Assembly (NCBI RefSeq): GCF_000513895.2
Contig: NZ_CP165782.1
Span: 1,922,001 to 1,986,000 of the forward strand
Reading direction: 5' to 3'
Length of the DNA: 64,000 nt
DNA from: Ensifer sp. WSM1721
Lineage (GTDB): Bacteria; Pseudomonadota; Alphaproteobacteria; Rhizobiales; Rhizobiaceae
Shown: piece by piece, positions 2,057-63,489 of the stretch
Layout of the letters: each line of letters opens with the position of its first letter
Numbering within the stretch: position 1 is the stretch's first letter
The notes under the pieces: generated by a model
Told to the model about the DNA's origin: nothing
What the model saw: only the letters and a program-made list of their open reading frames with translations
The model's database searches: none
Translations under genes and position numbers: made by a program

Positions 2057-2632
2057 TCACGACTTTAGCACGCCGCTCCTCCTCGCCGTCCAGGTGGCGA
2101 TGATGTCCATCAGCTCGGGCGACAGGCAGTCGTAAGGTTCGAGGCCAAGCTGCCTCAGGTGGTTGCGGACGGAGTTCATCCTTGAGGGATCGACCCCTCC
2201 TTCGATGATCGACGAGACGAAGGCGGCAAAGGTGGGTTCGGGCCAACCGCTCTCTTCGAACCTTTCCGGGTGGATGAAATCGAGTCCTTGGAAGGCATGT
2301 TCACGCTCGACCGGCCCATACATGTGCACGCCGCATTCCCTGCAGCGGTGGCGCCGGATCAAGGCCGTCGGGTCCACGACCTCGAGCTTGTCGCCGTTTT
2401 CGAGCACGCTGACGTTCTCATGCGGTGTGACCGCCACGATCGAAAACGTCGCACCGTCCGGCTTCCAGCACTTGGTGCAGCCGCAAGCGTGATTGTGAGC
2501 GATGCCGCCGGCGATGCGGATCCGGACCGTTCTATCTGTGCAGGCGCAAACCAGCGTCCCGCCCCCGAAGGCAGGACTGCCCCTGGTGACACCATTGTCG
2601 AGGTTTGGATGCAGCGGGACGGGGGTTTCCAT
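2057..2632 (-). CDS. gfa: S-(hydroxymethyl)glutathione synthase
   Basis: A 191-residue Gfa/CENP-V family protein that promotes condensation of formaldehyde with glutathione, the first step of glutathione-dependent formaldehyde removal in the cytoplasm. The zinc-binding cysteines are seen as CAC near residue 33, [10 protein letters not shown] near 50-59, and [12 protein letters not shown] near 97-108; the C-terminal signature [15 protein letters not shown] is also Gfa-like. Start MET-Glu-Thr-Pro is preferred over an upstream one because aggag lies three bases upstream and homologues begin at this SLHPxxDNG-like segment. No adhC-type formaldehyde dehydrogenase lies next to it here. Confidence 0.92.
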
Positions 2633-2885
2633 TTGCTCCTCCCTCAAGAACCGGCGCCTCTCCACAGCGCCGGTTGCCGATACGATGCGGAAAGGTCCGC
2701 TTCATCGCTGCGGAAGTGCAAGCGGCGCCTGCCAAGGCGCCGCTTCGCGGTCTCCTCCGACCCGGCACCGAGCGCAACCTTCGCGTCCGCACCGAAGAAT
2801 ACCACCGAAAACATCTACTGCCGAATGCCGCACACCGGCTCGGCCATCAGCACCGATATGCAAGTGCGGCTCGATGCGCATGGAT

Positions 2886-4220
2886 TCAGCGCACCAGCCG
2901 AATGGCGCCAGGATAGTTGAATTGCGTGTTCGCCAACTCGGCGCTGCAATCCATCTTGAATGTACTGTTGCCGATGAGCGTGATCTCCTGCGCGATCAAT
3001 CTTATGCACTCTCCGCTCGTCGTGCCGTTGCCGGAATATTGCAGTTCGGCGACGTCAGGCAGGTAGACGATTCCCGTCAGCGACGATTGGCTGTTGCCGT
3101 TGATGATAGCGGACGCGGTGTTGCCATGCTCGGCAACAATCGAGAAACCCGCCCAGGCACCCTCCAGCGATGGCGAGATGTTGAAGGTGGCACCGCCATT
3201 GATTTTAAGCTCGGCGCCGTTCATGAGGAAGAAGGTCACCCGTTGTCCATTTACGACTGTCTGGCTGCCGAGCTCGAGACGGCCGCCGTCGATCATGTAG
3301 TTGCCCGACTCGAGCTTGATCGCTCCCTTCAAGTCCAGGCCGCCATAGGTCCCAGGCTTTAATGTTACCACGTGGCCATCGGCGTTCTTGGGCGTCTTGC
3401 CGGTGCCGTTGCAATCGCCGTTGCCGCCGCCGCCCGCAACGAAGTTCTGGCCGCAGCCGGAAAGGTCCACCCAGGTGGATGTCTTGGGCAGAACCTTGCT
3501 CGCAAACGGATCGGGTACGCGCGGCGATCCTTCGACCGCGCCCTTGCACGTCAAGGCTATAGATTGCGGCGAGCTGTAGATGCCGCCCGCCGCGTAAAGA
3601 CATTCTGCTTTGAGCTTTCCGCTCCCGCCGACATAGATCGACTGAGCATCATTCGAATTAGAGACGACTGTGCACCCGGTGAGATCCGCCGCCGCGCTTC
3701 CGCTGACCTCGAACGCCCGATCGGCCGTGCGGTGGAGCGCCAGGATGCAAGCCTCCGCTCCCGCCGCGCGCGCCGCCACGGCCTGGCGCCGGATCGTCAG
3801 TGGCAGGCGCTCCAGGAAAAGCGACTTGTAGTCGAGCACGAACTCGGCCGCGGCCGTATCCTCGTCGAGGCTCCGTGTGAATTTCACCGCCAATGCCTCA
3901 GTGGATGGGTCTGTGGCGACGGCCAAAGCATCGACGACGCTTTTCTGCGGCAGGGCGTAGTTGCCCCAGAAGAACTTCTCGGCCTCCTGATGGGCCTCCT
4001 CCTCGGTTGCCCCCTCCCCATAAGCCCGCACGGATCCCAATGCCGCGGCGTCGAGCGCGTTCTGGATCTTCTCCGCCTCGAGATAGGCGCCGACGAGATC
4101 GACCGCAAGCGCGGCGGCTCCGATGATCGGGATGAAGCCGATCGCGCCGAGCACGGCGAAGTTGCCGTCCCGGTTTTGCGCCAGCTTTCTTAATTGCAAG
4201 CGGAACGTCGCGGCCCTCAT
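2886..4220 (-). CDS. TadG-like pilus assembly/secreted protein
   Basis: A 444-residue protein with the TadE/TadG N-terminal layout: a basic start, one hydrophobic segment (FAVLGAIGFIPIIGAAALAVDL, residues about 22-43) followed by a long extracytoplasmic region. QNALDAAALGSVRAYGEG right after the helix is typical of TadG-related proteins. The C-terminal half is rich in Gly/Asn/Ser and short beta-strands, suggesting a parallel beta-helix-like or adhesive domain. The start at 4220 has gagggaa upstream; an ATG at 4244 is possible but has a poor site. No other tad/cpa gene is nearby, so the partner secretion machine must be elsewhere or the protein acts alone. Confidence 0.75.
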   Translation of the reverse strand: MRAATFRLQLRKLAQNRDGNFAVLGAIGFIPIIGAAALAVDLVGAYLEAEKIQNALDAAALGSVRAYGEGATEEEAHQEAEKFFWGNYALPQKSVVDALAVATDPSTEALAVKFTRSLDEDTAAAEFVLDYKSLFLERLPLTIRRQAVAARAAGAEACILALHRTADRAFEVSGSAAADLTGCTVVSNSNDAQSIYVGGSGKLKAECLYAAGGIYSSPQSIALTCKGAVEGSPRVPDPFASKVLPKTSTWVDLSGCGQNFVAGGGGNGDCNGTGKTPKNADGHVVTLKPGTYGGLDLKGAIKLESGNYMIDGGRLELGSQTVVNGQRVTFFLMNGAELKINGGATFNISPSLEGAWAGFSIVAEHGNTASAIINGNSQSSLTGIVYLPDVAELQYSGNGTTSGECIRLIAQEITLIGNSTFKMDCSAELANTQFNYPGAIRLVR

Positions 4221-4334
4221 AGCCTTCCCTCTCGGCAGCTCCATCTCATTATTTAAGCAGTAACTAATTTAAAGATCGTTAGGAAATTCCCTCGGGTTTT
4301 ACGAGACTTTTAGAGATTACAAGGGAGTTGGCTG

Positions 4335-4556
4335 TCACCGCGGAGACCCGCGGCTCCAGGCCGCCTCGCTCTTCTGCTCATAATGGGTAAAAGCCTTGAC
4401 GAGCCCGTCAAGCACCTCTGCCGAGGTTTCGAACAGGGCCTTGAATTGCGGATCGTCGACCTTGGTGACATCTTCCCGCAAATGTTCGATCAGCGTGTTC
4501 AATTCGCCTTTCATCTTCTGCGTGTGATGGATCGGATCTGCATTGGTTTGTGCCAT
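4335..4556 (-). CDS. Small conserved-looking hypothetical protein
   Basis: A 73-residue soluble, acidic protein (start MAQTNADPIHHTQKMKGEL) with good ribosome site gggagaag seven bases before the ATG. The sequence is predicted mostly helical with heptad-like spacing (LNTLIEHLREDVTKV, ALFETSAEVLDGLVKAF), which would suit a small helical bundle or oligomer. I do not recognise a family. The codon use and the site argue that it is translated. It lies 114 bases upstream of the TadG-like gene in the same direction; co-transcription is possible but not shown. Confidence 0.6.
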   Translation of the reverse strand: MAQTNADPIHHTQKMKGELNTLIEHLREDVTKVDDPQFKALFETSAEVLDGLVKAFTHYEQKSEAAWSRGSPR

Positions 4557-17343: not shown

Positions 17344-18378
17344 CTACAGGCGCCACCCGCCGCTCATGACGAAGGGTACCGGCGCGCCCTCGCCGAGCAC
17401 CACGCTGCTATAGGCCTTGAGCTGCTGCCCGTCCGGCAGGGAGAGCGTGACCGCGAAGCGTTCGCCCTCGAAGATGCACGAGACGACCCGCATGGAAATA
17501 CCGTCGGTGCCGCGATGCACCTGTTCCGGCCGGACAAGCACATCGGCGAGCGGCCCCTCGCCCGCCTGTCCGCCGGCGCCGAGCGCGGCACGCAGGAGCG
17601 GCCAGTCGAGCACGCGTCCCGCCGCTTCCGGGAGCTTGAGCCGCAGGATACTGCCGCGCCCGATCAATCCGCCGACCACCCGCCCCTCGGGCCGCGCATA
17701 GATCTCCGCCGGCGGCGCCACCTGAAGCAGCTTGCCTTCCGACATCACCGCAACATCGGTCGCAAGCGCCATGGCTTCCGCCTGGTCGTGTGTCACATAG
17801 ATCATCGTCGCGCCGGAGCGCTCGTGAAAGGCGCGGAAGGTCTCCTCCATAGCCTTCCTCAAATGCTGGTCGAGATTGGCGAGCGGCTCGTCGAGCAGCA
17901 CCACGTCCGGCTCGGTCACGAGGCAGCGCGCCAGCGCCACCCGCTGCCGCTGCCCGCCGGAGAGCGCCGCAGGCCGCCGCTCGGCGAAATCGTCGAGCTT
18001 CACGAGCGAAAGCGCTTCGCCCACCCGCCTGCGCCAGGCCTCGCCGGAGATGCCGCGCATCTTCAAGGGATAGCCGACATTCTCCGCCACCGTCATATGC
18101 GGCCAGAGCGCATAGGACTGGAAGACCATCGCCATGTTGCGCTTTTCCGGCGGTAGCACTCGTTCCGCATCCGAAAGCGGCCGGTCGCCGAACTCGATCG
18201 AGCCGTCCGTCGGCTGCTCGAAGCCGGCGATCATCCGGAGCACTGTCGTCTTGCCGCAGCCGGAGGGGCCGAGCAGAGCCAGGAATCCCTGCTTGCGCAC
18301 GGCAAGCGAAACGTCCGAAACCGCCGGCCTGCCACTACCGAAGTCCTTGGTCAGGTGGTTGAGGATCAGTTGCGCCAT
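17344..18378 (-). CDS. FbpC/AfuC-like ABC transporter ATP-binding protein
   Basis: A 344-residue ATPase that powers import through the adjacent permease. Walker A GPSGCGKTT (about residues 37-45), Q-loop FQSYALWPHM, signature LSGGQRQRVALAR and Walker B VVLLDEPLANLD are all intact, followed by the H-loop YVTHDQAEA. The C-terminal TOBE-like region (from about 235) matches the iron/polyamine/phosphonate (FbpC/PotA) class. The start overlaps the permease stop by 13 bases, showing translational coupling. It is the last gene of a binding protein-permease-ATPase operon. The substrate call rests on the binding protein. Confidence 0.92.
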   Translation of the reverse strand: MAQLILNHLTKDFGSGRPAVSDVSLAVRKQGFLALLGPSGCGKTTVLRMIAGFEQPTDGSIEFGDRPLSDAERVLPPEKRNMAMVFQSYALWPHMTVAENVGYPLKMRGISGEAWRRRVGEALSLVKLDDFAERRPAALSGGQRQRVALARCLVTEPDVVLLDEPLANLDQHLRKAMEETFRAFHERSGATMIYVTHDQAEAMALATDVAVMSEGKLLQVAPPAEIYARPEGRVVGGLIGRGSILRLKLPEAAGRVLDWPLLRAALGAGGQAGEGPLADVLVRPEQVHRGTDGISMRVVSCIFEGERFAVTLSLPDGQQLKAYSSVVLGEGAPVPFVMSGGWRL

Positions 18379-20135
18379 GGCAGCACGTCCTCCGGCAGGT
18401 ATTTCGCGATGAATTCGAGGGCCGCCATCAGCGCAATGACCATGAGGACGACGAGCACCGAAAGCGCCGAGGCGAGATCGGAGGAGCCGCTGTCGTCGAG
18501 ATTGAAGATCGCGACGCCAAGCGTCTGTGTGCCGGCGGACCAGAGAAGCGCCGAGACCGTCAGCTCGTTTGCCGCAATCAGGAAGACGAGGATGACGGAG
18601 GCGCCGGCGGCGGGCGCAATCAGCGGCAGAAGCACGTCGCGCGTGCGGCGCAGAAAACCTGCCCCCGCGAGCCGCGCCGCCTCCTCGAGCGCCGGGTCCA
18701 TCTGCAGGAAGGCGCTCATCACCGGCTTGAGGCTGACAGCCAGGAAGGAAGAGAAATAGGCAGCAAGGATGATCCAGATCGTGCCGTAAAGCGAAAGGCC
18801 GATCACCGGCAGCGGTGCCGCGAAGATGAGGATGAAGGCGACGGCGAGCACGATGCCGGGCAGCGCATAGGGCACCTCGATCAAAATCGCCAGGAGATTG
18901 GCAAGCGCACCCCGCCGACGGACGAGCAGATAGCCGGTCGGCACGGTGACGACGAGCAGGCCGACCGCCGCGGCGGAAGCGAGAAAGAGCGAGTTCCTGA
19001 GCGCCGTCAGCGTCACCGACTGGCGGAAGAGGATTTCGCCATAGGCATGAAGTGACATGGTTTGAAAGTTGAGCGGCACGCCATAGGCCGGCACCAGCGA
19101 GCTCGCAACGAGCGCCAGAAGCGGCGCGACCAGCACCACCGCCAGCAGCGCCCAAAGCAGCGCCTCCGCGGCAAGCCGCAAGCGCCCGAGCGCGAAGGCG
19201 GCATTCGCGCCGAAAAGGCCGATCAGGCGATAGTCCCGGCCGGAAAGTGCTCGCTGCTGCAGCAGAAGCCCGGCAGCGGAGACGACGGCGATCAGGCTCG
19301 AGAGAACGGCGATCTCGCCAAAGGTGGCGGTGCCGAAGCTCGCAAGTCGGCTGAAGATCAGCGTCGGCAGCGTCTCGATCGAGGCGGGAATGCCGAGGAT
19401 CGCCGGAATGCCGAAATTGCCGATGCCTGAAACGAAGGCGATCGCCGCCCCGGCGATGAGCCCCGGAAAGGAAAGCGGCAGCACGATATCGCGGAAGACG
19501 CGCCACGGCGAAGCGCCGGCAAGCCGCGCCGCCTCGACCCCGTCTCGTGGAGCACCGGCAAGCCCGGCCTTCACCGCCAGGAAGACGAGCGGCGCATGCT
19601 GCACGCCCAAAAGAAGCGCGATGCCGGAAAACGAATAGAGCGGCTGCGGACTGCCGAGTGGCGGCGCAAGCCCCAGCGCCTTCAGCAGCGGGCTCGATGG
19701 GCCGGACATCTCCACCCAGGCAAGCGCCGTCACCTGCGGCGGGATCATCATCGGCAGCATGAAGGCGAAGCTCAAGGCCAGCTTGCCGCGGATATCGGTG
19801 AGCGCCATCGCAAAGGCGAAGAACGCTCCGAGCATGAGCGAAATGAGCATTCCGCCTGTCGCCGTGATTAGCGTATTGCGAAGCGCGGCAAAGGTCGCCG
19901 GCTCGAAGAGAACCCTCGCCGCCTCGCCTTCCACGAGGCCGCCGAAGCCCGCCCAGCCGAGCCGGATGAGCGGCAGGGCCGAAAGCAGAAAGACGGCGCA
20001 GAATACGAAGAGCATGAGCCAGGCGGGCTCCCCGCCGCCGCGCTGCCCACCGCGTAAGGAAAATGGAAACCGCCGCCCTGCTCCGCGCCGCCTGGTCTTC
20101 CGCTCAGGTAAGTCGTCTGCCGCAGCGTAAGGCAT
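18366..20135 (-). CDS. FbpB/AfuB-like ABC transporter permease (double domain)
   Basis: A 589-residue permease with two copies of the inner-membrane domain, about six helices each. EAA loops are visible as VEAARLAGASPWRVFRDIVLPLSFPG (first half) and LEEAARLAGAGFLRRTRDVLLPLIAP (second half), the contact sites for the ATPase. I place the start at 20135 (MPYAAADDLPERK) because the longer open frame to 20474 runs through a degenerate RIME-like repeat at 20257-20320 and has no better ribosome site; ATGs at 20303 and 20396 remain possible. The double-length architecture is typical of ferric-iron type importers. Confidence 0.88.
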   Translation of the reverse strand: MPYAAADDLPERKTRRRGAGRRFPFSLRGGQRGGGEPAWLMLFVFCAVFLLSALPLIRLGWAGFGGLVEGEAARVLFEPATFAALRNTLITATGGMLISLMLGAFFAFAMALTDIRGKLALSFAFMLPMMIPPQVTALAWVEMSGPSSPLLKALGLAPPLGSPQPLYSFSGIALLLGVQHAPLVFLAVKAGLAGAPRDGVEAARLAGASPWRVFRDIVLPLSFPGLIAGAAIAFVSGIGNFGIPAILGIPASIETLPTLIFSRLASFGTATFGEIAVLSSLIAVVSAAGLLLQQRALSGRDYRLIGLFGANAAFALGRLRLAAEALLWALLAVVLVAPLLALVASSLVPAYGVPLNFQTMSLHAYGEILFRQSVTLTALRNSLFLASAAAVGLLVVTVPTGYLLVRRRGALANLLAILIEVPYALPGIVLAVAFILIFAAPLPVIGLSLYGTIWIILAAYFSSFLAVSLKPVMSAFLQMDPALEEAARLAGAGFLRRTRDVLLPLIAPAAGASVILVFLIAANELTVSALLWSAGTQTLGVAIFNLDDSGSSDLASALSVLVVLMVIALMAALEFIAKYLPEDVLPWRN

Positions 20136-21863: not shown

Positions 21864-23063
21864 ATGGCTTTCGTCGATGTCGAGTTTGAGGAAGAAGAGG
21901 ATTCAGGACTTGATCGAAGGCAAGTTCAACACTTTTCAGAAGCGGTTCTTCATTCGGCAGATTGGACTGTTGAAACCATTGTTTCCCAACTGACGCGGTC
22001 AAACATTGAGATGAATCCGCGATTTCAACGTCGAGACGCTTGGTCCCGCAGCCGCAAGAGCACCTTCATAGAGTCTCTAATCCTTGGGCTACCTGTTCCA
22101 CAGATCGTATTAGCTGAGAAACAAGGACAGCGAGGAAAATACATTGTTTTGGATGGCAAACAAAGGCTCCTATCTCTTCTCCAGTTCACAGGAAATGCTG
22201 AGGGAAACAATAATAATTTCCGTCTGAGCGGCCTGGAGGCGAGGTCAGACTTATTACGGAAGAGGGTTCAAGACTTAGCTGAGCCGCAACTTGAGCCAGA
22301 CTACAATGCGTTCCTAAATTACACCATCAGAACGGTTGTTATCCGAAATTGGCCTGATTTTGATTTTCTTCATCTCGTGTTCCTTCGCTTGAACACTGGG
22401 AGTGTGAAGCTTTCTCCTCAAGAGCTTCGCCAAGCTATGTTTCCAGGCGATTTTTCCGACTATGTTGATGACAGTGCGGCGGCCTCGCAGCCTTTACAGG
22501 CTTTGCTCGGAAGGGAAAGTCCCGACCCTCGAATGAGAGACGTCGAGTTGCTGACGCGATACCTGAGTTTCCAACATTTCCTTTCAGGCTACACGGGTAG
22601 AATGAAAGATTTTTTGGACACCACGTGCAACACCCTCAATGACGAATGGGAAATCCGTAAAGAGTTCGTCTTTTCGTCTGTTGAGCAATTCAATGAGGCG
22701 ACATCAGCCCTCATCGAGATATTTGGGATCGAACAAATCGCGCGCAAAAGCGGGTCTCGATCATTTAATCGAGCAATCTTTGACGCACTGATTTTTTACG
22801 CTGCCAATCCACAAATTCGTGCTGAGATGATGACGCATCAGGACGATGTGAGAAGGATATACGCTTCGCTCATCGCCGACGCTGATTTTATCGCGGCAGC
22901 GGAGAGTGACACGGCGGGCGTTCCGAATACGCTGGAGAGGCTAAGAAAGTGGGGCGCTCTGCTGCGAGATGCGATTGGAGTCGAGTTCAATGTTCCTTCG
23001 TTGCGCCCTGCCGATGAGTTGAATCCTCGCGCGGGAATCGACTTTGATGGCTTCGGAGTGTAG
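21864..23063 (+). CDS. DUF262 (GmrSD N-terminal/ParB-like) protein
   Basis: A 399-residue protein. The N-terminal half is a DUF262 domain: IEMNPRFQRRDAWS near residues 49-62, a hydrophobic LGLPVPQIVLAE strand, and VLDGKQRLLSLLQF near 97-108, the variant of the DGQQR motif that gives this ParB-like domain its predicted nucleotidase/nicking activity. The C-terminal half is helical and unassigned, and no DUF1524 HNH nuclease is present, unlike GmrSD enzymes. The ATG at 21864 has gggag seven bases upstream; one at 21858 is too close. The next gene starts three bases after the stop, so both form one operon. The composition is AT-richer than the neighbours, suggesting acquisition by transfer. Confidence 0.85.
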   Translation: MAFVDVEFEEEEDSGLDRRQVQHFSEAVLHSADWTVETIVSQLTRSNIEMNPRFQRRDAWSRSRKSTFIESLILGLPVPQIVLAEKQGQRGKYIVLDGKQRLLSLLQFTGNAEGNNNNFRLSGLEARSDLLRKRVQDLAEPQLEPDYNAFLNYTIRTVVIRNWPDFDFLHLVFLRLNTGSVKLSPQELRQAMFPGDFSDYVDDSAAASQPLQALLGRESPDPRMRDVELLTRYLSFQHFLSGYTGRMKDFLDTTCNTLNDEWEIRKEFVFSSVEQFNEATSALIEIFGIEQIARKSGSRSFNRAIFDALIFYAANPQIRAEMMTHQDDVRRIYASLIADADFIAAAESDTAGVPNTLERLRKWGALLRDAIGVEFNVPSLRPADELNPRAGIDFDGFGV

Positions 23064-23066
23064 CCG

Positions 23067-23747
23067 ATGGCATCGGCCAGGTACGAAGAACTACTTGAGT
23101 AACTCGATACGCTCAGAACCCATTTGCTGCCGAATGAGTTTGAACCCACAGGCTTATACGATGAAGCAGAAGCTGTTTCCACCAAGGCTCTCGCTTTTAG
23201 GGTGTTGGCTCATGCTGAGATCGAAGCTTTCTTTGAGGACCGGGCCCTAGAGACTGTGCGCAAAGCGCGAACTGCTTGGATGGACAATGGCCATGTATCT
23301 AAAGTCGTACTTTGTTTACTTGGCTTCAGCGGAAGAAGCATGGATGCTCCTCCGGATACTCTCGAGGCTCCAGGAGAAAACAAAAGGAAAATATGGCCAG
23401 AACTCGTGGATATCTCCGAGCGGATCAAGCCAGTGTTAGCGGCGTTTCACAACTTCGTCCGAAACGAAAACCACGGTATCAAGGAAAAAAATCTGCTCGC
23501 ACTTCTATTGCCTATCGGAGTTGCTCACAAGGTGATCGATCCAAGGTTCCTTGCAGACATGGACTCCTTCGGAGCTCTTCGAGGGGCAGCGGCCCATACA
23601 TCAACGAAGACCGCCGTGCGTCAAGGATTAAATCCAGCCGATGAGCTTGCCCGCGTTGACCGGTTGAAGGCTGGTATACTCGCACTTGACGATCAAATCG
23701 AACAACTACTCATAGCCATCCCGCCAGCGGCTAACCAAGCAGCCTGA
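23067..23747 (+). pseudogene. HEPN-domain (RiboL-PSP-like) gene with an early in-frame stop
   Basis: The natural frame starts ATG three bases after the DUF262 stop and reads MASARYEELLE, then TAA at 23100-23102, then LDTLRTHLLPNEFEPTGLYDE and onward for 215 codons. The peptide on both sides of the TAA is in one frame and looks continuous, so a single C-to-T (CAA to TAA) or similar change is the simplest explanation. Downstream, RGAAAH (R-x4-H) fits the HEPN ribonuclease motif and the length suits RiboL-PSP/MAE_28990-type HEPN proteins, often found next to DUF262 genes. Translation could restart at TTG 23124 to give 207 residues lacking only the N-terminal helix. Either the toxin-like partner is dead, N-terminally shortened, or the base is a sequencing error. 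Confidence 0.65.
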
Positions 23748-23795
23748 ATGTATGTTCGCGGCTGCAATCCTTTATCTATCATCGACGCCTAGCGG

Positions 23796-23823
23796 TGACC
23801 GCTTTGGGCCGGCAGAGGACGAA
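23796..23823 (+). repeat. Short repeat, left copy flanking the kinase-like gene
   Basis: tgaccgctttgggccgg...ggac resembles tgaccgcttcgggccgaaag at 24943-24966 on the other side of the phosphotransferase-like gene. This string is a common short intergenic repeat in Rhizobiales. Confidence 0.4.
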
Positions 23824-23925
23824 CGCACTCGGCGGCTTCGCGCCATGAGTGGACATTGCGGTCGTTGTAGAACTCCGTAGTTTGCAATGCTAGTTTGCAT
23901 TTACGGCACCTACGGAACATCGGCC

Positions 23926-24909
23926 ATGTTTGACTTTGATCCGCTATATTCGACCCCTCAGATTGAGGCGATCGAACGCTTTATCGATAAGCACTACGCG
24001 TTGGGATCGCCGGTTTCTTGTCAATTGCTTCAACGCGGATTGAATGACGTTTACCTGGCCAGCGTGACCGGCAGCGAGCGTTATGTGTTTCGGCTTTCTC
24101 ACCACCGCGCGCGTGGGCCCGCCAACGTCAAGAGCGAAACTGCATTCTTGATCCACCTCTCTAAATTGGGCGTTCCGGTCGCCGCGCCCATTCCGACACG
24201 CGATGGCACGTTTTTCCTTCAAGGGCACGCACCAGAGGGTGCGCGCGATGCTGTGCTTTTTCAGGCGATCGATGGCCGAGAACCGCTTGCAACCGACGCC
24301 GGTGATGCTTGCGCCAACGGAAAGACCCTTGCTCTACTGCACAACGCGGCCGAGACATTTCCGGTTGACGGTGCGCTGTACCGGCTTGATCTGGAACATT
24401 TACTGCATCGGCCTCTTGCCCGAATTCGCGATAGCGGAATTGTGGAAGAAACGCATGTCCTCAGCGACCTTGGACAGATCGCCGAGCGGACTGCGGCGGC
24501 TATCAAGGCGTTCAGCAACCTGACATGGACGTATTGTCACGGGGACTGCCACGGCTTCAATTCGCGTATCAATGGGGCTGGAGAAGCAGTGTTTTTCGAC
24601 TTCGATGACGGAGGTCCCGGATACCTTGCCTATGACTTGGCCGTTTTTTTGTGGGCACAAGTCTCTTTCGGCCGGTCGTTGACCGCTACGTGGGCTGCCT
24701 TCGTTGATGGCTATCAGTCAATCCGTCCAATAACGCCCGACGACTTCGAAGCAGCTATTCGGTTTGTGATCGTCCGCCACTTTTGGCTGATGGGTGAGTA
24801 CGCAAGCCGCGCGCGAGAGTGGGGAAACAACAGTGTCGGTTGGATAGCACGGGAGGTGACTTTTCTCAGCACGTGGGAGACCGAGCGATGTGTCGGGCGT
24901 CTATTCTGA
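23926..24909 (+). CDS. Aminoglycoside phosphotransferase/choline kinase-like protein
   Basis: A 327-residue protein of the APH/ChoK kinase-like fold. The catalytic loop is YCHGDCHGFNSR (about residues 204-215, with Asp as base and Asn as Mg ligand) and the metal motif FFDFDDGGPGYLAYDLA follows about 20 residues later, as in SrkA/HomoserineK-type enzymes. The N-lobe contains YVFRLSH, which supplies a nucleotide-binding strand with Arg instead of Lys. The start at MFDFDPLYS fits the family's length; an ATG at 23887 is possible and neither has a clear ribosome site. It probably phosphorylates a small hydroxyl-bearing metabolite or protein side chain; resistance to a drug is not implied. Confidence 0.82.
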   Translation: MFDFDPLYSTPQIEAIERFIDKHYALGSPVSCQLLQRGLNDVYLASVTGSERYVFRLSHHRARGPANVKSETAFLIHLSKLGVPVAAPIPTRDGTFFLQGHAPEGARDAVLFQAIDGREPLATDAGDACANGKTLALLHNAAETFPVDGALYRLDLEHLLHRPLARIRDSGIVEETHVLSDLGQIAERTAAAIKAFSNLTWTYCHGDCHGFNSRINGAGEAVFFDFDDGGPGYLAYDLAVFLWAQVSFGRSLTATWAAFVDGYQSIRPITPDDFEAAIRFVIVRHFWLMGEYASRAREWGNNSVGWIAREVTFLSTWETERCVGRLF

Positions 24910-58908: not shown

Positions 58909-59436
58909 TCACATTTGTCGTCGGCCCGCGCCAGTGGCGAGCCACCAATCCGCAGACAGCCTGCCCGCACCCCAGGTCATGACGCCGAGCGCCATCGCCG
59001 CCCAGGTCAGATGAAGCGGCCATCCATCCGGTACCGTCAACTGGATGGCGATTGTCATCACCAAAAGCCCGAACGCGACGAGACGCGTCGCCAATCCCAA
59101 GACCAGCAAAGCAGACAAGAGAACCTCGGCGCAGGCGACCACGAAGGCGGTCACCGCCGGCGCAGGGAAGGGATATGGACCTCCGGGCAGGTACAATTGG
59201 AATTCCGATGTGAAGAGGAGAACCGCGACATCGTTCAACTGCAAAAAGCCATCCCATTTGCTCATACCCGAACGCCAGAAGGGTACGGCAAGCCCCAGCC
59301 GCAAGGCGAGTTGAGTAAGCGACGCCGGTGCCACGGTGGCAACCAGGCCGTCGATCCGACCGAGCCAACCTCCCCTTCCCCCGCCCTCGCGTCTGTCGAA
59401 GAATTTCCGTACCGAAATCACTTTCTCATCCTCCAT
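58909..59436 (-). CDS. DoxX-family membrane protein of the bufferin operon
   Basis: A 175-residue protein with four helices: about residues 40-60 (LTQLALRLGLAVPFWRSGMSKW, the DoxX start), 75-95, 100-125 (AFVVACAEVLLSALLVLGLATRLVAFGLLVMTI) and 130-155. DoxX proteins are membrane subunits linked to oxidative or thiosulfate/quinone chemistry. The gene's ATG at 59436 overlaps the end of the preceding gene by 11 bases; a GTG at 59421 with ggagg in place is an alternative. In Cupriavidus (gigT) and Caulobacter the same DoxX partner ends bufferin-type operons. Its exact job there is unknown. Confidence 0.85.
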   Translation of the reverse strand: MEDEKVISVRKFFDRREGGGRGGWLGRIDGLVATVAPASLTQLALRLGLAVPFWRSGMSKWDGFLQLNDVAVLLFTSEFQLYLPGGPYPFPAPAVTAFVVACAEVLLSALLVLGLATRLVAFGLLVMTIAIQLTVPDGWPLHLTWAAMALGVMTWGAGRLSADWWLATGAGRRQM

Positions 59437-60226
59437 GGCGGATCGCGGCAAAGGCGCCGGCCTCAAGCATGACGGCGACGGCAGCCGCGAGATCGAATTC
59501 CGGGCAGCACCTTTTTCCTACCGCCGCGGCGTTTCCGAATGGCTCGCCTCCAAGCAGATTGCTGAGGAAGACGTCAGCCCCCGGGGGAAGGCAGCGGACC
59601 TCCACTTCGAGCGCCGGCCGTGTGATCAGCGCGCTTTCTGCTGCCGCGACCTCGATGCGGCCGACCGGACCATCGCCGCGGTTCGCCAAAAAGACGGTCA
59701 CGGCCGGATAGGCGGAGCGGATGATGCGGGTCGCCGGGTGCGGCTCGAAGACGATGCCGGCGAGGTCCACGGGTCGAACCGACGCCAGCGCGTGCGCTGG
59801 CAGGACGGCTGCGTCCGCCGCATGATAGGCGTCGAGCCAGGCGCGCTCGATGCGCGCGACGTCGGCTAGCCACGGCATGGACTGGGCATGTTCATACCGC
59901 TCGATGAAATCGGGAAAGTCCCGGCCGTATTCGAAGAGGAGCGGCGACATCGGTGGCGTCTCGCGGATGTGAAATCGGGCCATGGCCCGAAAGAATGCTT
60001 CGCCCGTGATGCGCATCGTCGCCGGAAACGTGGCGGCGAGTGCCTCGATGAGGCTGACGGTCACGTTGTTGCGATAGACATTGAAGCGTTTGTCGGCCGC
60101 CTTGCCGTTTGGGCCGGCAACGAGCGCCGGGGTCGGGCGCCCGGGGTCGAGCAGTCCGGGCGTGAAGCGCTCCGGATAGCCCAACCGCTCGGCGGCGTCG
60201 GCAGGACGTTCCTCAGCCGCGCGCAT
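59426..60226 (-). CDS. bufC: DUF2063/HvfC-BufC-like partner of the MNIO enzyme
   Basis: A 266-residue protein. The N-terminal DUF2063 domain contains FNVYRNNVTVSLIEALAATFPATMRITGEAFFRAMARFHIRETPPMSPLLFEYGRDFPDFIE (about 47-108). This domain is the recruiting partner of DUF692 (MNIO) enzymes in methanobactin-like and bufferin systems, where it presents the precursor peptide. It overlaps the DUF692 gene by 14 bases and the DoxX gene by 11, a tightly coupled operon. In Cupriavidus the matching gene is gigB. Confidence 0.85.
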   Translation of the reverse strand: MRAAEERPADAAERLGYPERFTPGLLDPGRPTPALVAGPNGKAADKRFNVYRNNVTVSLIEALAATFPATMRITGEAFFRAMARFHIRETPPMSPLLFEYGRDFPDFIERYEHAQSMPWLADVARIERAWLDAYHAADAAVLPAHALASVRPVDLAGIVFEPHPATRIIRSAYPAVTVFLANRGDGPVGRIEVAAAESALITRPALEVEVRCLPPGADVFLSNLLGGEPFGNAAAVGKRCCPEFDLAAAVAVMLEAGAFAAIRHGG

Positions 60227-61142
60227 GTAATTTCTCCTGTCGGTGGCCCGCCGCGTGCCGATTCAGGATCGCTTGGGCCGCCTTTGCTTCGCGCTTCAGC
60301 ACTGGCCACTCCGGAATGGCACTGTCCCATTCGATCAGCGTCGGGACGGGGCTACGCCAGCCGATCACGATATCGAAGAGCTTCCACACCGCGTCTGCGA
60401 CCGGCCCATCATGGCTATCGATCAACAGGAGGTCGCCTTCATCGTCCTCCTGTTCGGCATGGCCGGCCAGATGGATCTCGCCGACATGTTCGAGCGGGTA
60501 GTCCGACAGATAGTCGAGCGCCGAAAAGCCGTGATTGGTCGCCGAGACGAAGACATTGTTGATGTCGAGCAACAGACCGCATCCCGTGCGTTTCACGATC
60601 TCCCGGATGAATGCGGTCTCGCTTATCGTCGACTCCTTGAAAACCACATAGGTCGAGGGGTTTTCCAACAGGAGCGGTCGGCCGATCGCCTCCTGCACCT
60701 CGTCGATATGCTCGGCGACGCGCCTGAGGCTTGCCTCCGTGTAGGGCAAGGGTAGGAGGTCGTTGTAGTAGGTCGTGTCGTGCGTCGACCACGCCAGGTG
60801 TTCAGAGACGAGCGCCGGCTCGTATCGCTCGACGAGTGTCGCGAAACGGCCGAGATGGTCCTTGTTCAAAGGCTGCGGCCCGCCGATCGACATGCATACG
60901 CCATGGAGCGAGACCGGATGATCCTCGCGTATTCGCGTGAGGGCCGCGTGCGGCGGCCCGCCAGCGCCCATATAGTTCTCTGCATGAACTTCGAAGAAAC
61001 CGCCACCTCGCTCTTCGTCGGCGAGGATGGACGGCAGATGCTGGTGTTTGAAGCTGGTACCCGCCAGCCCATCGATCGGATGCGCCGGAAAGCGGAGAGT
61101 TCCCGGCTGAGCGCGATCCGTGTGACTTGCCACTTCCGGCAT
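60213..61142 (-). CDS. bufB: DUF692 multinuclear non-haem iron-dependent enzyme (MNIO), BufB-like
   Basis: A 309-residue TIM-barrel enzyme. Family motifs are GGGFFEVHAENYMG, VSLHGVCMSIGG, LVSEHLAWSTHDTTYYNDLLPLPYT, PLLLENPSTYVVF, CGLLLDINNVFVSATNHG, EIHLAGHAEQ, LLIDSHDGPV and PTLIEWDSAIPEWPVL; together they supply the His, Asp and Glu ligands of the iron cluster. DUF692 enzymes modify cysteines in ribosomally made peptides (oxazolone-thioamide in methanobactin, 5-thiooxazole in bufferins). It lies 32 bases after the DUF2282 precursor gene, and gtggaggcgac precedes its ATG. The upstream open frame to 61334 is not used. Confidence 0.92.
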   Translation of the reverse strand: MPEVASHTDRAQPGTLRFPAHPIDGLAGTSFKHQHLPSILADEERGGGFFEVHAENYMGAGGPPHAALTRIREDHPVSLHGVCMSIGGPQPLNKDHLGRFATLVERYEPALVSEHLAWSTHDTTYYNDLLPLPYTEASLRRVAEHIDEVQEAIGRPLLLENPSTYVVFKESTISETAFIREIVKRTGCGLLLDINNVFVSATNHGFSALDYLSDYPLEHVGEIHLAGHAEQEDDEGDLLLIDSHDGPVADAVWKLFDIVIGWRSPVPTLIEWDSAIPEWPVLKREAKAAQAILNRHAAGHRQEKLHARG

Positions 61143-61174
61143 TGTCGCCTCCACTTTCCGGTGCTTGTATCGGC

Positions 61175-61498
61175 TTAAGAGGGAATGTCCCGCGACAGCG
61201 GTTCCGGCGAGCCCTTTCGGCCGCCCGGGAGTTCCATGGTCGTGCAGGTGCCGCCGTCCACGAATTTCCAGGCATTGCCCTGGTAATCGACAGTCGATGT
61301 GGCCTGGCAGGTCGTGCCTGGGCCGGCAGCGCAATCATTCTGCCCCTTGAGCGCGACGCCGTAACACTTCTCCTTGCCGGCATCCATCGCGGCTTTGACC
61401 TCGGCCTCCGAGAGCGGCGCGGCCATCGCGAGCGACGACACCGCGGTTGCCACAGCGCTGGCAAGCATGGCCGCGCTTATCGAGCTTCTGGTAGACAT
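61175..61498 (-). CDS. bufA: DUF2282 bufferin-type precursor peptide (BufA-like)
   Basis: A 107-residue exported precursor. Residues 1-26 form a signal peptide ([20 protein letters not shown], cut after AMA). The mature part has four cysteines at positions 45, 56, 64 and 85 ([39 protein letters not shown]), the conserved DUF2282 pattern. In Caulobacter, MNIO/BufC enzymes turn two of the four into thiooxazole groups that bind copper, and the other two form a disulfide; that outcome is inferred here. It is the first gene of the operon and has gaagaag before its start. The C-terminal tail is basic-polar. Alternatively it is a plain periplasmic metal-binding protein, as in the gig locus (gigP). 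Confidence 0.9.
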
Positions 61499-61553
61499 GA
61501 TCTTCTTCTCCGTTGTTGCTGGGTGCGCCTTCCCTTCGGCACACAGAGCGTCC

Positions 61554-61579
61554 TTCGTCGCCAGCGGGAGAGATGTTAC
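61554..61579 (-). promoter_or_regulatory. Putative ECF promoter of the bufferin operon
   Basis: On the minus strand GTAACA-N16-CGAA, with the CGAA end 55 bases before the bufA ATG. It resembles the GTAACC-N16-CGAA pattern that I recall for the Caulobacter ECF factor SigF, which controls DUF2282/DUF692 operons there. Confidence 0.55.
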
Positions 61580-61697
61580 ATTTGGCGGCTACACGCTTTC
61601 GTGAGCCGGGCGTGCTCTGAATTCACGGTGATTTTGGATTGACTCGGGAAGGACGAACGCTTCCGGTTTCATGACGAAAAGAATGCTGCAAGAACAT

Positions 61698-61722
61698 GTA
61701 ACAAGCGGCGGAAATCGGCGAA
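61698..61722 (+). promoter_or_regulatory. Possible ECF promoter upstream of the sigma factor gene
   Basis: GTAACA-N15-CGAA on the + strand, ending 17 bases before the preferred GTG start at 61740. One base shorter in spacing than the bufA-side match. It would give autoregulation, but the leader would be very short, so this is tentative. Confidence 0.35.
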
Positions 61723-61739
61723 TTGGGAGGAAGAAGCAG

Positions 61740-62273
61740 GTGAACGGCGCGGATGACGGCGATCTCGCCCGACTCTTTCGCTCGGCGCTTGGCGGCGACG
61801 AGAAGGCCTACGGCGATTTCCTCAACGACGCCGCGGCGCTCGTCCGTGTCTGGGCGCGCCGGAGAGCATATCCCGACCTTGATCCGGAAGATATTGTTCA
61901 GGAAACGCTGCTGGCGGTCCATCTGAAGCGCCACACCTGGCGGAATGACGGTCCGGTCAAGCCTTGGCTTTATGCGATCGCGAGGCACAAGCTTGTCGAT
62001 GCTTTGCGACGGCACGGCCGCCACACACGCGTCGAACTCGGCGAGGTCGAAGAGGAGCTTGCGAGCGCAGAGGCGGAGACCGCCAGAGACTGGGAAATCG
62101 GCCGCGCACTCGAGGTGCTGACGCCGGGCCAGCGTTCCGTGGTGAGGGCGATATCGGTGGAAGGGCGCACGATAGCGGAGGCCGCAAGAAGCCTGGGCAT
62201 GAACGAGACCGCAGTTCGCGTCGCGCTCCACCGCGGCCTTGCGGCCATCGCCAAGCGATTTGGACGGGAATGA
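61740..62273 (+). CDS. ECF sigma factor, SigF-like
   Basis: A 177-residue sigma-70 family ECF factor. Region 2 reads GDEKAYGDFLNDAAALVRVWARRRAYPDLDPEDIVQETLLAVHLKRHTW (about 18-66), with DPEDIVQETLL as the core-binding and -10 region; region 4 reads LEVLTPGQRSVVRAISVEGRTIAEAARSLGMNETAVRVALHRGLAAIAKRFG. The GTG at 61740 has gggaggaaga ending five bases before it and is preferred to an ATG at 61671 that lacks a site. It stands divergent from the bufferin operon and is followed by a DUF1109 anti-sigma gene, the set known from Caulobacter SigF-NrsF. Confidence 0.88.
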   Translation: MNGADDGDLARLFRSALGGDEKAYGDFLNDAAALVRVWARRRAYPDLDPEDIVQETLLAVHLKRHTWRNDGPVKPWLYAIARHKLVDALRRHGRHTRVELGEVEEELASAEAETARDWEIGRALEVLTPGQRSVVRAISVEGRTIAEAARSLGMNETAVRVALHRGLAAIAKRFGRE

Positions 62274-62274
62274 C

Positions 62275-62913
62275 ATGGAAACGCATGAACTCATCAAGGC
62301 ACTCGCGGCAGACACGAAGCGAAGCGGCATGCCGATGGCTTTCGCCTGGTCGGGCGCCGCCATCCTTGCAGTCGCCGTCGCTGCGGGCGTCTTCCTGGCG
62401 CTTCTCGGTCCGAGGTCCGACGTCGCAAACGCGATGCAGACGTTGCGTTTCCTCTACAAATTCCTGGTGACGATTGCGCTTGCGCTCAGCGCCGTAGGAG
62501 TTCTGCGGGTACTATCGCGACCGGAGGCCGAGCCGCGCACCTTTCTTCCCTATCTTGCCATCGCACCGGCGCTACTGCTCGCGGGTGTCCTCGCGGAGCT
62601 TGTCGCTGTGCCCGCCAGCGCATGGCCTGCGCGCCTCGTCGGAAGCAATGGCCTGGTATGCCTGACCTTCATTCCGCTGCTCGGCCTCGGCCCGCTCGCG
62701 TTGTTATTGCTGGCGCTGCGCCATGGAGCTCCCTCTCAGCCCACACTTGCAGGGGCGGTTGCCGGGCTCGCGGCCGGAGGCATCGCAGCAACCTTCTATG
62801 CCGCCCATTGCACCGACGACTCGCCGCTCTTCGTGGCTACCTGGTACACGGCGGCAATCGCCATCCTGGTGTTTCTCGGCTGGGTCGGCGCGCGCCGCTT
62901 CGTCCGCTGGTAA
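62275..62913 (+). CDS. nrsF: DUF1109/NrsF-like anti-sigma factor
   Basis: A 212-residue membrane protein with six helices (about residues 25-45, 62-80, 92-112, 125-148, 160-178, 188-206). Two cysteines at positions 129 and 179 (NGLVCLTF and AAHCTDDS) match the conserved pair whose equivalents in Caulobacter NrsF sense chromate, cadmium and copper and release the sigma factor. The start codon lies one base after the sigma stop, showing translational coupling. It therefore most likely holds the ECF factor inactive at the inner membrane until metal or thiol stress. Confidence 0.88.
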   Translation: METHELIKALAADTKRSGMPMAFAWSGAAILAVAVAAGVFLALLGPRSDVANAMQTLRFLYKFLVTIALALSAVGVLRVLSRPEAEPRTFLPYLAIAPALLLAGVLAELVAVPASAWPARLVGSNGLVCLTFIPLLGLGPLALLLLALRHGAPSQPTLAGAVAGLAAGGIAATFYAAHCTDDSPLFVATWYTAAIAILVFLGWVGARRFVRW

Positions 62914-63127: not shown

Positions 63128-63331
63128 TCATCCGCCGTGCCGCGCCTCCTGAACCGGCGGACATGGCTCGGAGCCGTAGGAGCAGAACACGCAGCAATCG
63201 CCTTCCCTCGGCTTGATGATCGCGCCGCATCCCTTGCATTCGTAGACACGAAGACAGGCATCGATTGGCATCGTTTCGACCGCCTGGTAGCGACAGTTGG
63301 GGCAAGTCAGCACGGATAAAAGGTGAACCAT
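63128..63331 (-). CDS. Small zinc-ribbon-like protein with GDCCVFCSYG motif
   Basis: A 67-residue protein with three pairs of cysteines: LTCPNCRY near the N-terminus, YECKGCGAIIKP in the middle and GDCCVFCSYGSEPCPPVQE near the end. The first two CxxC pairs make a zinc ribbon; the last block is a GDCCVFCSYGxxPCPPxQ signature that I recall from rhizobial hypothetical proteins. The ATG at 63331 has caggag eleven bases upstream; 63340 is closer to it and less likely. It is monocistronic. A metal-handling or redox role is possible but not shown. Confidence 0.75.
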   Translation of the reverse strand: MVHLLSVLTCPNCRYQAVETMPIDACLRVYECKGCGAIIKPREGDCCVFCSYGSEPCPPVQEARHGG

Positions 63332-63489
63332 ACGGCGCATTCTCCTGCAGCTTCATCCGCTGCCGCATGATTTTACCTCACATCACTGCGCCGTGCCCAT
63401 CTTCCGCGGGCGAGGCACGCGCCCCTGCAACAACCCGCCCTCCTCGGCCCTGTAAAAAATCGCGGCCGCCGCGCCCTATCGTCTGGTCG

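Follow-up and report, generated by a model that had tools for sequence, protein, structure and literature searches.

Described systems and the locus

The locus analyzed here occupies positions 58909-62913 of a 64,000-nucleotide stretch of the Ensifer sp. WSM1721 genome (contig NZ_CP165782.1, positions 1,922,001 to 1,986,000; the whole stretch is called the window, and positions refer to it), and comprises six genes, with a bufferin-type operon, bufA-bufB-bufC-doxX, on the minus strand, facing a sigma/anti-sigma factor pair, sigF-nrsF, on the plus strand. The Cupriavidus and Legionella gig clusters reportedly have the same gene core. In Caulobacter, the four-gene bufferin 1 operon (CC3254-CC3257) adjoins sigF-nrsF, as in the window, the full set being CC3252-CC3257 (PMC3511200). 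The Caulobacter promoter reads GTAACC-N16-CGAA, and two NrsF cysteines matter for function (PMC3511200, PMC8224329). Copper induces the Caulobacter sigma-F regulon and sigF::Tn5 is copper-sensitive (PMC8224329); the regulon is also described as taking in CC2907-CC2905, a second operon, and CC2748, a gene of msrP type. For bufferins, both thiooxazole chemistry and the binding of copper have been reported (PMC12668002, PMC13419390), and in a survey of MNIO clusters, sigma and NrsF genes were found in Buf1 but not Buf2 clusters (PMC12452194). The EcfF-OsrA pair of Bradyrhizobium consists of an extracytoplasmic function (ECF) sigma factor of group ECF16 and a DUF1109 anti-sigma factor, with GTAAC-type promoters; H2O2 and singlet oxygen elicit its response, methionine sulfoxide reductases are among its listed targets, and the OsrA cysteines C129 and C179 stand at the same positions as those of the window NrsF (PMC3420878).

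The closest studied relative is the RpoE7-EcfR7 / SMb20527-SMb20530 locus on pSymB of Sinorhizobium meliloti, in which the six genes, their order and their orientations are as in the window (PMC6180224). Identities by tblastn between the two loci were 91% for BufA, 84% for SigF, 82% for BufB, 75% for BufC, 73% for DoxX and 67% for NrsF, and the S. meliloti locus resembles the window in its closely similar divergent promoters, its GTG sigma start and the same palindrome upstream of the bufA promoter. The promoters of both units and the GTG start of RpoE7 have been reported, and RpoE7 overexpression raises SMb20527-20530 (log fold change 4.7-6.8 as printed) (PMC6180224). The two loci differ in their surroundings: the one lies on pSymB, whereas the other lies on a contig (C1) with dnaA, in keeping with the rhizobial chromosome named in an earlier, sequence-only reading of this DNA (the initial annotation), and none of five flanking window proteins tested was found within 5 kb either side of the S. 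meliloti locus.

The gene kit is not new. The layout, for which the initial annotation had implied novelty, is a standard six-gene copper-binding-peptide set published in close relatives, namely S. meliloti (PMC6180224) and Caulobacter (PMC3511200), with sigma and NrsF genes recorded in Buf1 clusters (PMC12452194), and the cluster adds one more rhizobial example of a known copper-buffering peptide system. What appears to be new here is a conserved palindrome as a candidate second control site at the bufA promoter. We consider it very probable that the locus is an operon of the bufferin-1 (captophorin) type, controlled by an ECF16 sigma/anti-sigma switch of its own, with a candidate second regulator at the bufA palindrome.

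Genes and conserved residues

The genes are given below with lengths in amino acids (aa), family scores in bits and the corresponding cut-offs.

58909..59436, minus strand: doxX (BufD position), DoxX-family membrane protein, 175 aa; Pfam DoxX 57.9 against 23.6
59426..60226, minus strand: bufC, DUF2063-type MNIO partner protein (PME type 1), 266 aa; Pfam DUF2063 85.2 against 27.2
60213..61142, minus strand: bufB, MNIO (DUF692) enzyme, 309 aa; Pfam 341 against 25, NCBIfam MNIO_BufB 369.6 against 310
61175..61498, minus strand: bufA, DUF2282 bufferin-1 precursor, 107 aa, first gene of the minus-strand set; Pfam DUF2282 79.6 against 22.4
61740..62273, plus strand: sigF, ECF sigma factor (ECF16 type), GTG start, 177 aa; Pfam Sigma70_r2 and r4_2, NCBIfam PRK12512 232.8 against 198
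62275..62913, plus strand: nrsF, DUF1109 membrane anti-sigma factor, 212 aa, cysteines 129 and 179; Pfam NrsF 183.8 against 26.8

The six genes lie where the initial annotation had placed them, by coordinates and by Pfam scores far over the cut-offs. Overlaps of 14 nt (bufB/bufC) and 11 nt (bufC/doxX) join the minus-strand genes, and a gap of 1 nt separates sigF from nrsF. For the sigma gene, GTG 61740 is a more likely start than ATG 61671 of the longest open reading frame, because the sigF promoter (61697-61722, see below) sits between the two. The ECF16 label for SigF rests on orthology to RpoE7, which is classed as ECF16 in PMC6180224.

Conservation was assessed in the best 80 of at least 569 confirmed relatives, hereafter the named loci. 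The BufB alignment (n = 82) contained the window, the 80 named relatives and a second operon of the same genome; the precursor alignment (n = 81) contained the window, the second operon and 79 of the 80 named loci, L050 being left out as truncated by a contig end. PDB matches of BufB were 3bww, TglH and MbnB. The iron ligands of TglH are His71, His107, Glu151, Asp184, His216 and Glu258, with a third site formed by Asp184, Asn187, Asp229 and His231 (PMC10880893); seven TglH ligands align to BufB E160, D193, N196, H224, D242, H244 and E271, while H80 and H115 fall outside the TglH alignment and were placed via the 3bww and MbnB alignments. All nine residues were invariant (82/82 BufB). Cysteines 45, 56, 64 and 85 of BufA were likewise kept in 81/81 precursors, so that neither a DUF692 protein without iron ligands nor unconserved precursor cysteines, both named by the initial annotation as grounds for abandoning its view, was encountered. 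The two conserved cysteines that it noted in the DUF1109 protein, C129 and C179, were both present in 29 of the 30 aligned NrsF proteins, the exception (L045) being a broken remnant. This nrsF remnant lies at 4060-4392 of a locus of Ensifer sp. LC163, where no sigma gene was recognized and the bufferin operon, sigma-F promoter and palindrome persist.

Sigma-F-type promoters and the proposed switch

61554..61580, minus strand: sigma-F-type promoter of bufABC-doxX, TGTAAC-N17-CGAA, 55 nt before bufA; similar to the SMb20530 promoter mapped in S. meliloti (PMC6180224)
61697..61722, plus strand: sigma-F-type promoter of sigF-nrsF, TGTAAC-N16-CGAA, ending 17 nt ahead of the sigma GTG; similar to the rpoE7 promoter mapped in S. 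meliloti (PMC6180224)

Two exact TGTAAC...CGAA sites are present in the bufA-sigF spacer, pointing away from each other. Both fit the published sigma-F consensus tGTAACc-N16-CGAA (equal to TGTAAC-N17-CGAA), the spacer from TGTAAC being N17 at bufA and N16 at sigF, and A replacing the final c in both. The promoter before sigF-nrsF suggests autoregulation. Of the 80 loci that have a precursor (79 named and the second operon), 68 carried GTAAC-N15..18-CG(A/T) within ~300 bp upstream of bufA, compared with 115 of 4050 random windows. Many Bradyrhizobium loci also showed a sigma-F-like motif on the strand divergent to bufA.

Over the whole genome, the exact motif TGTAAC-N14..17-CGAA gave 13 matches against 39 for a reversed control and was no commoner than that control; therefore, the regulon looks local. 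A wider sigma-F regulon in this genome was rejected, as of the 13 exact matches only the two at this locus stand out by position. An extra candidate target, TGTAACAAAACTGTCAT... upstream of a CorA/ZntB-like gene, was also rejected: it was present in 17/25 fetched upstream regions and was kept in G002, G006 and G015, all without an NrsF or MNIO match. We take this candidate to resemble a PHO box.

By analogy with characterized relatives, BufB, an iron enzyme, aided by BufC, would convert the central BufA cysteines C56 and C64 to thiooxazoles, and C45 and C85 may form a disulfide. BufA, whose N-terminus has the n/h/c regions typical of a Sec-like signal peptide as judged by eye, would be exported via Sec and chelate excess copper in the periplasm, with DoxX presumably assisting by an unspecified route. 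NrsF would keep SigF at the membrane until envelope stress, most likely copper, or thiol/oxidant damage by copper, acts on NrsF C129/C179 and frees SigF. Freed SigF would then transcribe bufABC-doxX and, divergently, its own operon.

An alternative is that reactive oxidants (H2O2, singlet oxygen, hypochlorous acid), and not metal, are the signal for the switch, the peptide being one of several envelope-protection outputs. In Bradyrhizobium, H2O2 and singlet oxygen trigger DUF1109 anti-sigma systems (PMC3420878), and hypochlorous acid induces a Brucella ECF/anti-sigma pair that a DUF1109 search also returned (PMC8315932); both systems control methionine sulfoxide reductase genes. Yet the orthologous S. 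meliloti promoters are reported as not induced by H2O2 (PMC6180224), and copper is a strong inducer in Caulobacter (PMC8224329). Moreover, only 2 of the 13 exact sigma-F-type matches are credible, both at this locus, with no msr gene recognized behind the others, not all of which were run against family libraries, and the tempting CorA/ZntB-like target fell away. Oxidant sensing is thus a tentative reading, which we judge rather unlikely.

A palindrome upstream of the bufA promoter

61591..61604, no strand assigned: palindrome, minus strand TCACGAAAGCGTGT, candidate site of a second regulator; first C of CACG 24 bp before the G of GTAAC (-35 box, bufA)

When the bufA-sigF spacers were aligned, a palindrome of the form TCACG-N4-CGTG(A/T) surfaced; neither it nor the second bufferin-1 operon described below is mentioned in the initial annotation. 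Its distances are counted between the first C of CACG and the G of GTAAC. Within 70 bp upstream of 68 bufA promoters (67 named loci and the window), CACG-N4-CGTG was perfect in 54, had one mismatch in 11 and two in 3; random 70-bp windows as control gave 24 perfect and 217 one-mismatch sites of 4800. With up to two mismatches allowed in the eight arm bases, 65 of the 67 named loci with a promoter had the palindrome 22-27 bp ahead of the -35 box, with no mismatch in 53, one in 11 and two in 1; the exceptions were L049 and L067. The sites comprised 27 distinct 14-mers with the consensus TCACG(A/G)ANTCGTG(A/T). Information in 33 non-redundant promoters was 1.7 bits per base in the palindrome arms and 0.12-0.13 in the flanks; as the profile uses preselected sites, the arm values are partly selected for and the flank values are not.

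For comparison beyond the named loci, 109 DUF2282 loci (29 + 80), part of the places listed, were examined in an evenly drawn Pseudomonadota set. A sigma-F-type motif occurred somewhere in the 340 bp searched at 41 of these, and the palindrome was found within 45 bp upstream, at any distance, in 8 as a perfect and in 4 as a one-mismatch site. The genomes with the palindrome at 22-27 bp, nine in number, all belong to the window's own family or order. A different pattern was seen in an alphaproteobacterial family, f25 (25 loci, two near-identical), in which 24/25 loci had one or more sites at ≤1 mismatch within a 125-bp stretch. There were 38 such sites in all (shuffled mean 2.4, maximum 8), and a perfect site occurred in 9/25 (shuffled mean 0.1, maximum 2), a contrast that is inflated by kinship within f25. 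Two or more sites were present in 13/25, most often 15 bp apart. The sigma-F motif was absent from the usual place in 24/25 of the f25 loci and from the whole 340 bp in 20/25. Pseudorhodobacter turbinis, a rhodobacterial named locus, had a one-mismatch palindrome and no sigma-F motif in 330 bp, and a few of the 12 named loci without a sigma-F motif at the usual place had palindrome-like sequences, which may be chance matches.

From this pattern we infer that the palindrome is a candidate binding site of a second regulator, which would gate the bufA promoter but not sigF: it is enriched at f25 bufA promoters without a sigma-F motif and is rare at more distant sigma-F promoters, which points to a regulator of its own. 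The palindrome might instead belong to the sigma-F promoter as an upstream element, or be a relic of shared ancestry. That its distance to the -35 box hardly varies (23-26 bp) would suit that explanation, as would its restriction, at that distance, to the window's own order in the Pseudomonadota set. We regard this as unlikely, since the flanks are unconserved compared with the arms (0.12-0.13 against 1.7 bits), since the 44 divergent sigma-F-type promoters gave only two upstream matches at ≤1 mismatch, both being the bufA palindrome seen from the other side, and since nearly all f25 upstream regions have the site and nearly all lack the motif at the usual place. A broader proposal, to which we give about an even chance on the sequence comparisons, is that many alphaproteobacterial bufferin-1 promoters carry the operator, a TCACGAATTCGTGA-like palindrome, of one widespread regulator; in the window's order it would make the bufA (not the sigF) promoter AND-type, and in f25 the same operator would act at promoters nearly all without a sigma-F motif there, with more than one copy at about half of the loci.

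Should a dedicated regulator bind the palindrome, bufferin operons without a nearby sigma/NrsF pair (52/80 loci in the DNA covered) may have in it the sensor that they otherwise lack. The silence of the S. meliloti fusions under Cd, chromate and H2O2 would also be accounted for if a second input was missing, and an unexplained negative would become a testable two-input model.

No palindrome regulon was recovered in the window's own genome, where TCACG-N4-CGTGW occurred at 11 distinct places (16 strand matches against 10 for the control). All 11, that of bufA included, were overlapped by a stop-free frame of at least 150 codons, a check that does not discriminate. A class-wide search for the palindrome together with a sigma-F promoter returned 15 of 385 genomes, the window's own included, in a sample not selected for carrying the operon; the reversed control was commoner, and the other hits look like chance. 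In a limited literature search without the original bufferin paper, the palindrome was not found with the terms used in PMC12452194, PMC3511200 and PMC6180224, nor did it feature among the titles listed by a wider query.

Ten bufA upstream regions without a sigma-F promoter (L046, L047, L063, L069, L089, L091, L095-L098) share, by eye, a TTGATTTCC(A/T)A(G/T)TGA-like element, and six of these ten loci are also without a clear doxX match.

Results at odds with the proposed control

The initial annotation's claim of a bufferin-type operon with its own ECF/anti-sigma pair is supported by the Pfam, residue-conservation and promoter tests, and a series of results weighs on the other side. The window NrsF scored 84.3 against a cut-off of 300 for the narrow NCBIfam equivalog 'anti-sigma-F factor NrsF' (NF042994); it is a member of the Pfam NrsF family, outside that equivalog. 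Other narrow NCBIfam equivalogs failed as well (HvfX 58.3 against 80, HvfC 36.5 against 142, BufA2 22.8 against 60). The sigma/NrsF pair stood divergently upstream, as in the window, at 17 of the 80 named loci and downstream at 7, while 4 had NrsF without a recognized sigma gene beside it and 52 had no pair in the DNA covered, some of which may keep the pair elsewhere. At the 32 Pseudomonadota loci with the sigma-F motif at the usual place, the palindrome was found at 22-27 bp in only 9, and the clusters of Nitrobacter hamburgensis and Shinella zoogloeoides lacked it at the usual place; therefore, the palindrome is no general feature of such systems, and it seldom accompanies the sigma-F promoters of more distant loci. 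Thalassobaculum had neither sigma-F motif nor palindrome.

The likely metal sensing proposed in the initial annotation fares unevenly. Copper induces the Caulobacter system (PMC8224329), but the S. meliloti rpoE7 and SMb20530 promoter fusions gave no response to H2O2, Cd or chromate (PMC6180224), and the inducer is therefore unproven in rhizobia. Copper is not among the agents named for these fusions, and the word appears once in that paper, about another gene (PMC6180224).

That the main physiological metal of the peptide is another thiophilic metal (gold, silver, mercury) and not copper is improbable: Au, Ag and Cu all elicit a response from gig clusters, fusions of MerC with bufferin are known (PMC8224329, PMC12452194), and in Mesorhizobium the bufferin operon and nrsF adjoin mercury-resistance-type genes (L035 has MerT and MerR, L036 a reductase fragment), but the operon's immediate neighbors in the window are DsbA-like, HxlR, GDCCVxC and PdxJ proteins, with no mer or gold genes, and the bufferin reports consulted describe copper binding and copper tolerance.

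A second bufferin-1 operon in the same genome

A complete second bufABC-doxX set lies outside the window on contig C2, at ~1366.8-1369.8 kb (L002 / L178), with no sigma-F-type motif upstream and no NrsF gene nearby; NrsF is single-copy in the genome, in the window. This differs from Caulobacter, where the sigma-F regulon reaches a second operon. Nineteen second-type operons of the genus were compared (the one on C2 and 18 others; three G031 copies, two G022 fragments and a cut G030 operon were excluded). All had the four cysteines. A sigma-F-type motif was found in the 260 bp upstream in 0/19, and a 27-bp upstream block (GAAACCATGCCTGAACAGCATTTCAAA), different from the palindrome, was present in 19/19 with 0-3 mismatches. 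The two bufferin-1 operons of the genome appear to be controlled separately, because the second type is without the sigma-F motif, has its own 27-bp block and occurs in G014 without NrsF. The 27-bp block yielded no regulon, its one genome match at ≤3 mismatches being its own place.

Distribution and neighboring features

Among 33 genomes of the genus, NrsF was found in 28 and an MNIO gene in 29, and among 397 Pseudomonadota genomes DUF2282 was found in 125. Loci L028, L062, L070, L078, L082 and L088 have bufA. The NrsF genes near bufferin operons without a recognized sigma gene lie at L035 3743-4399, L036 3802-4572, L037 128-880 and L044 1798-2517. L064 has, divergent to bufA, a gene (2216-4366, minus strand) whose product combines Cache and guanylate/adenylate cyclase domains. 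BufB matches occurred in 73 Escherichia plasmid records, and two enterobacterial plasmid regions that were viewed (L350, L351) carry a bufABC-doxX operon without the sigma/NrsF pair.

In the window, a gene for a small GDCCVxC-domain protein (63128-63340, minus strand; NCBIfam NF041374) adjoins nrsF, and such a gene is also near nrsF in L019, L020, L022, L023 and L026. Elsewhere in the window, GC content dips locally at 22001-24000 (0.505 against ~0.62), and a strong AT skew (0.317) is present at 18001-20000, 2 kb before the dip.

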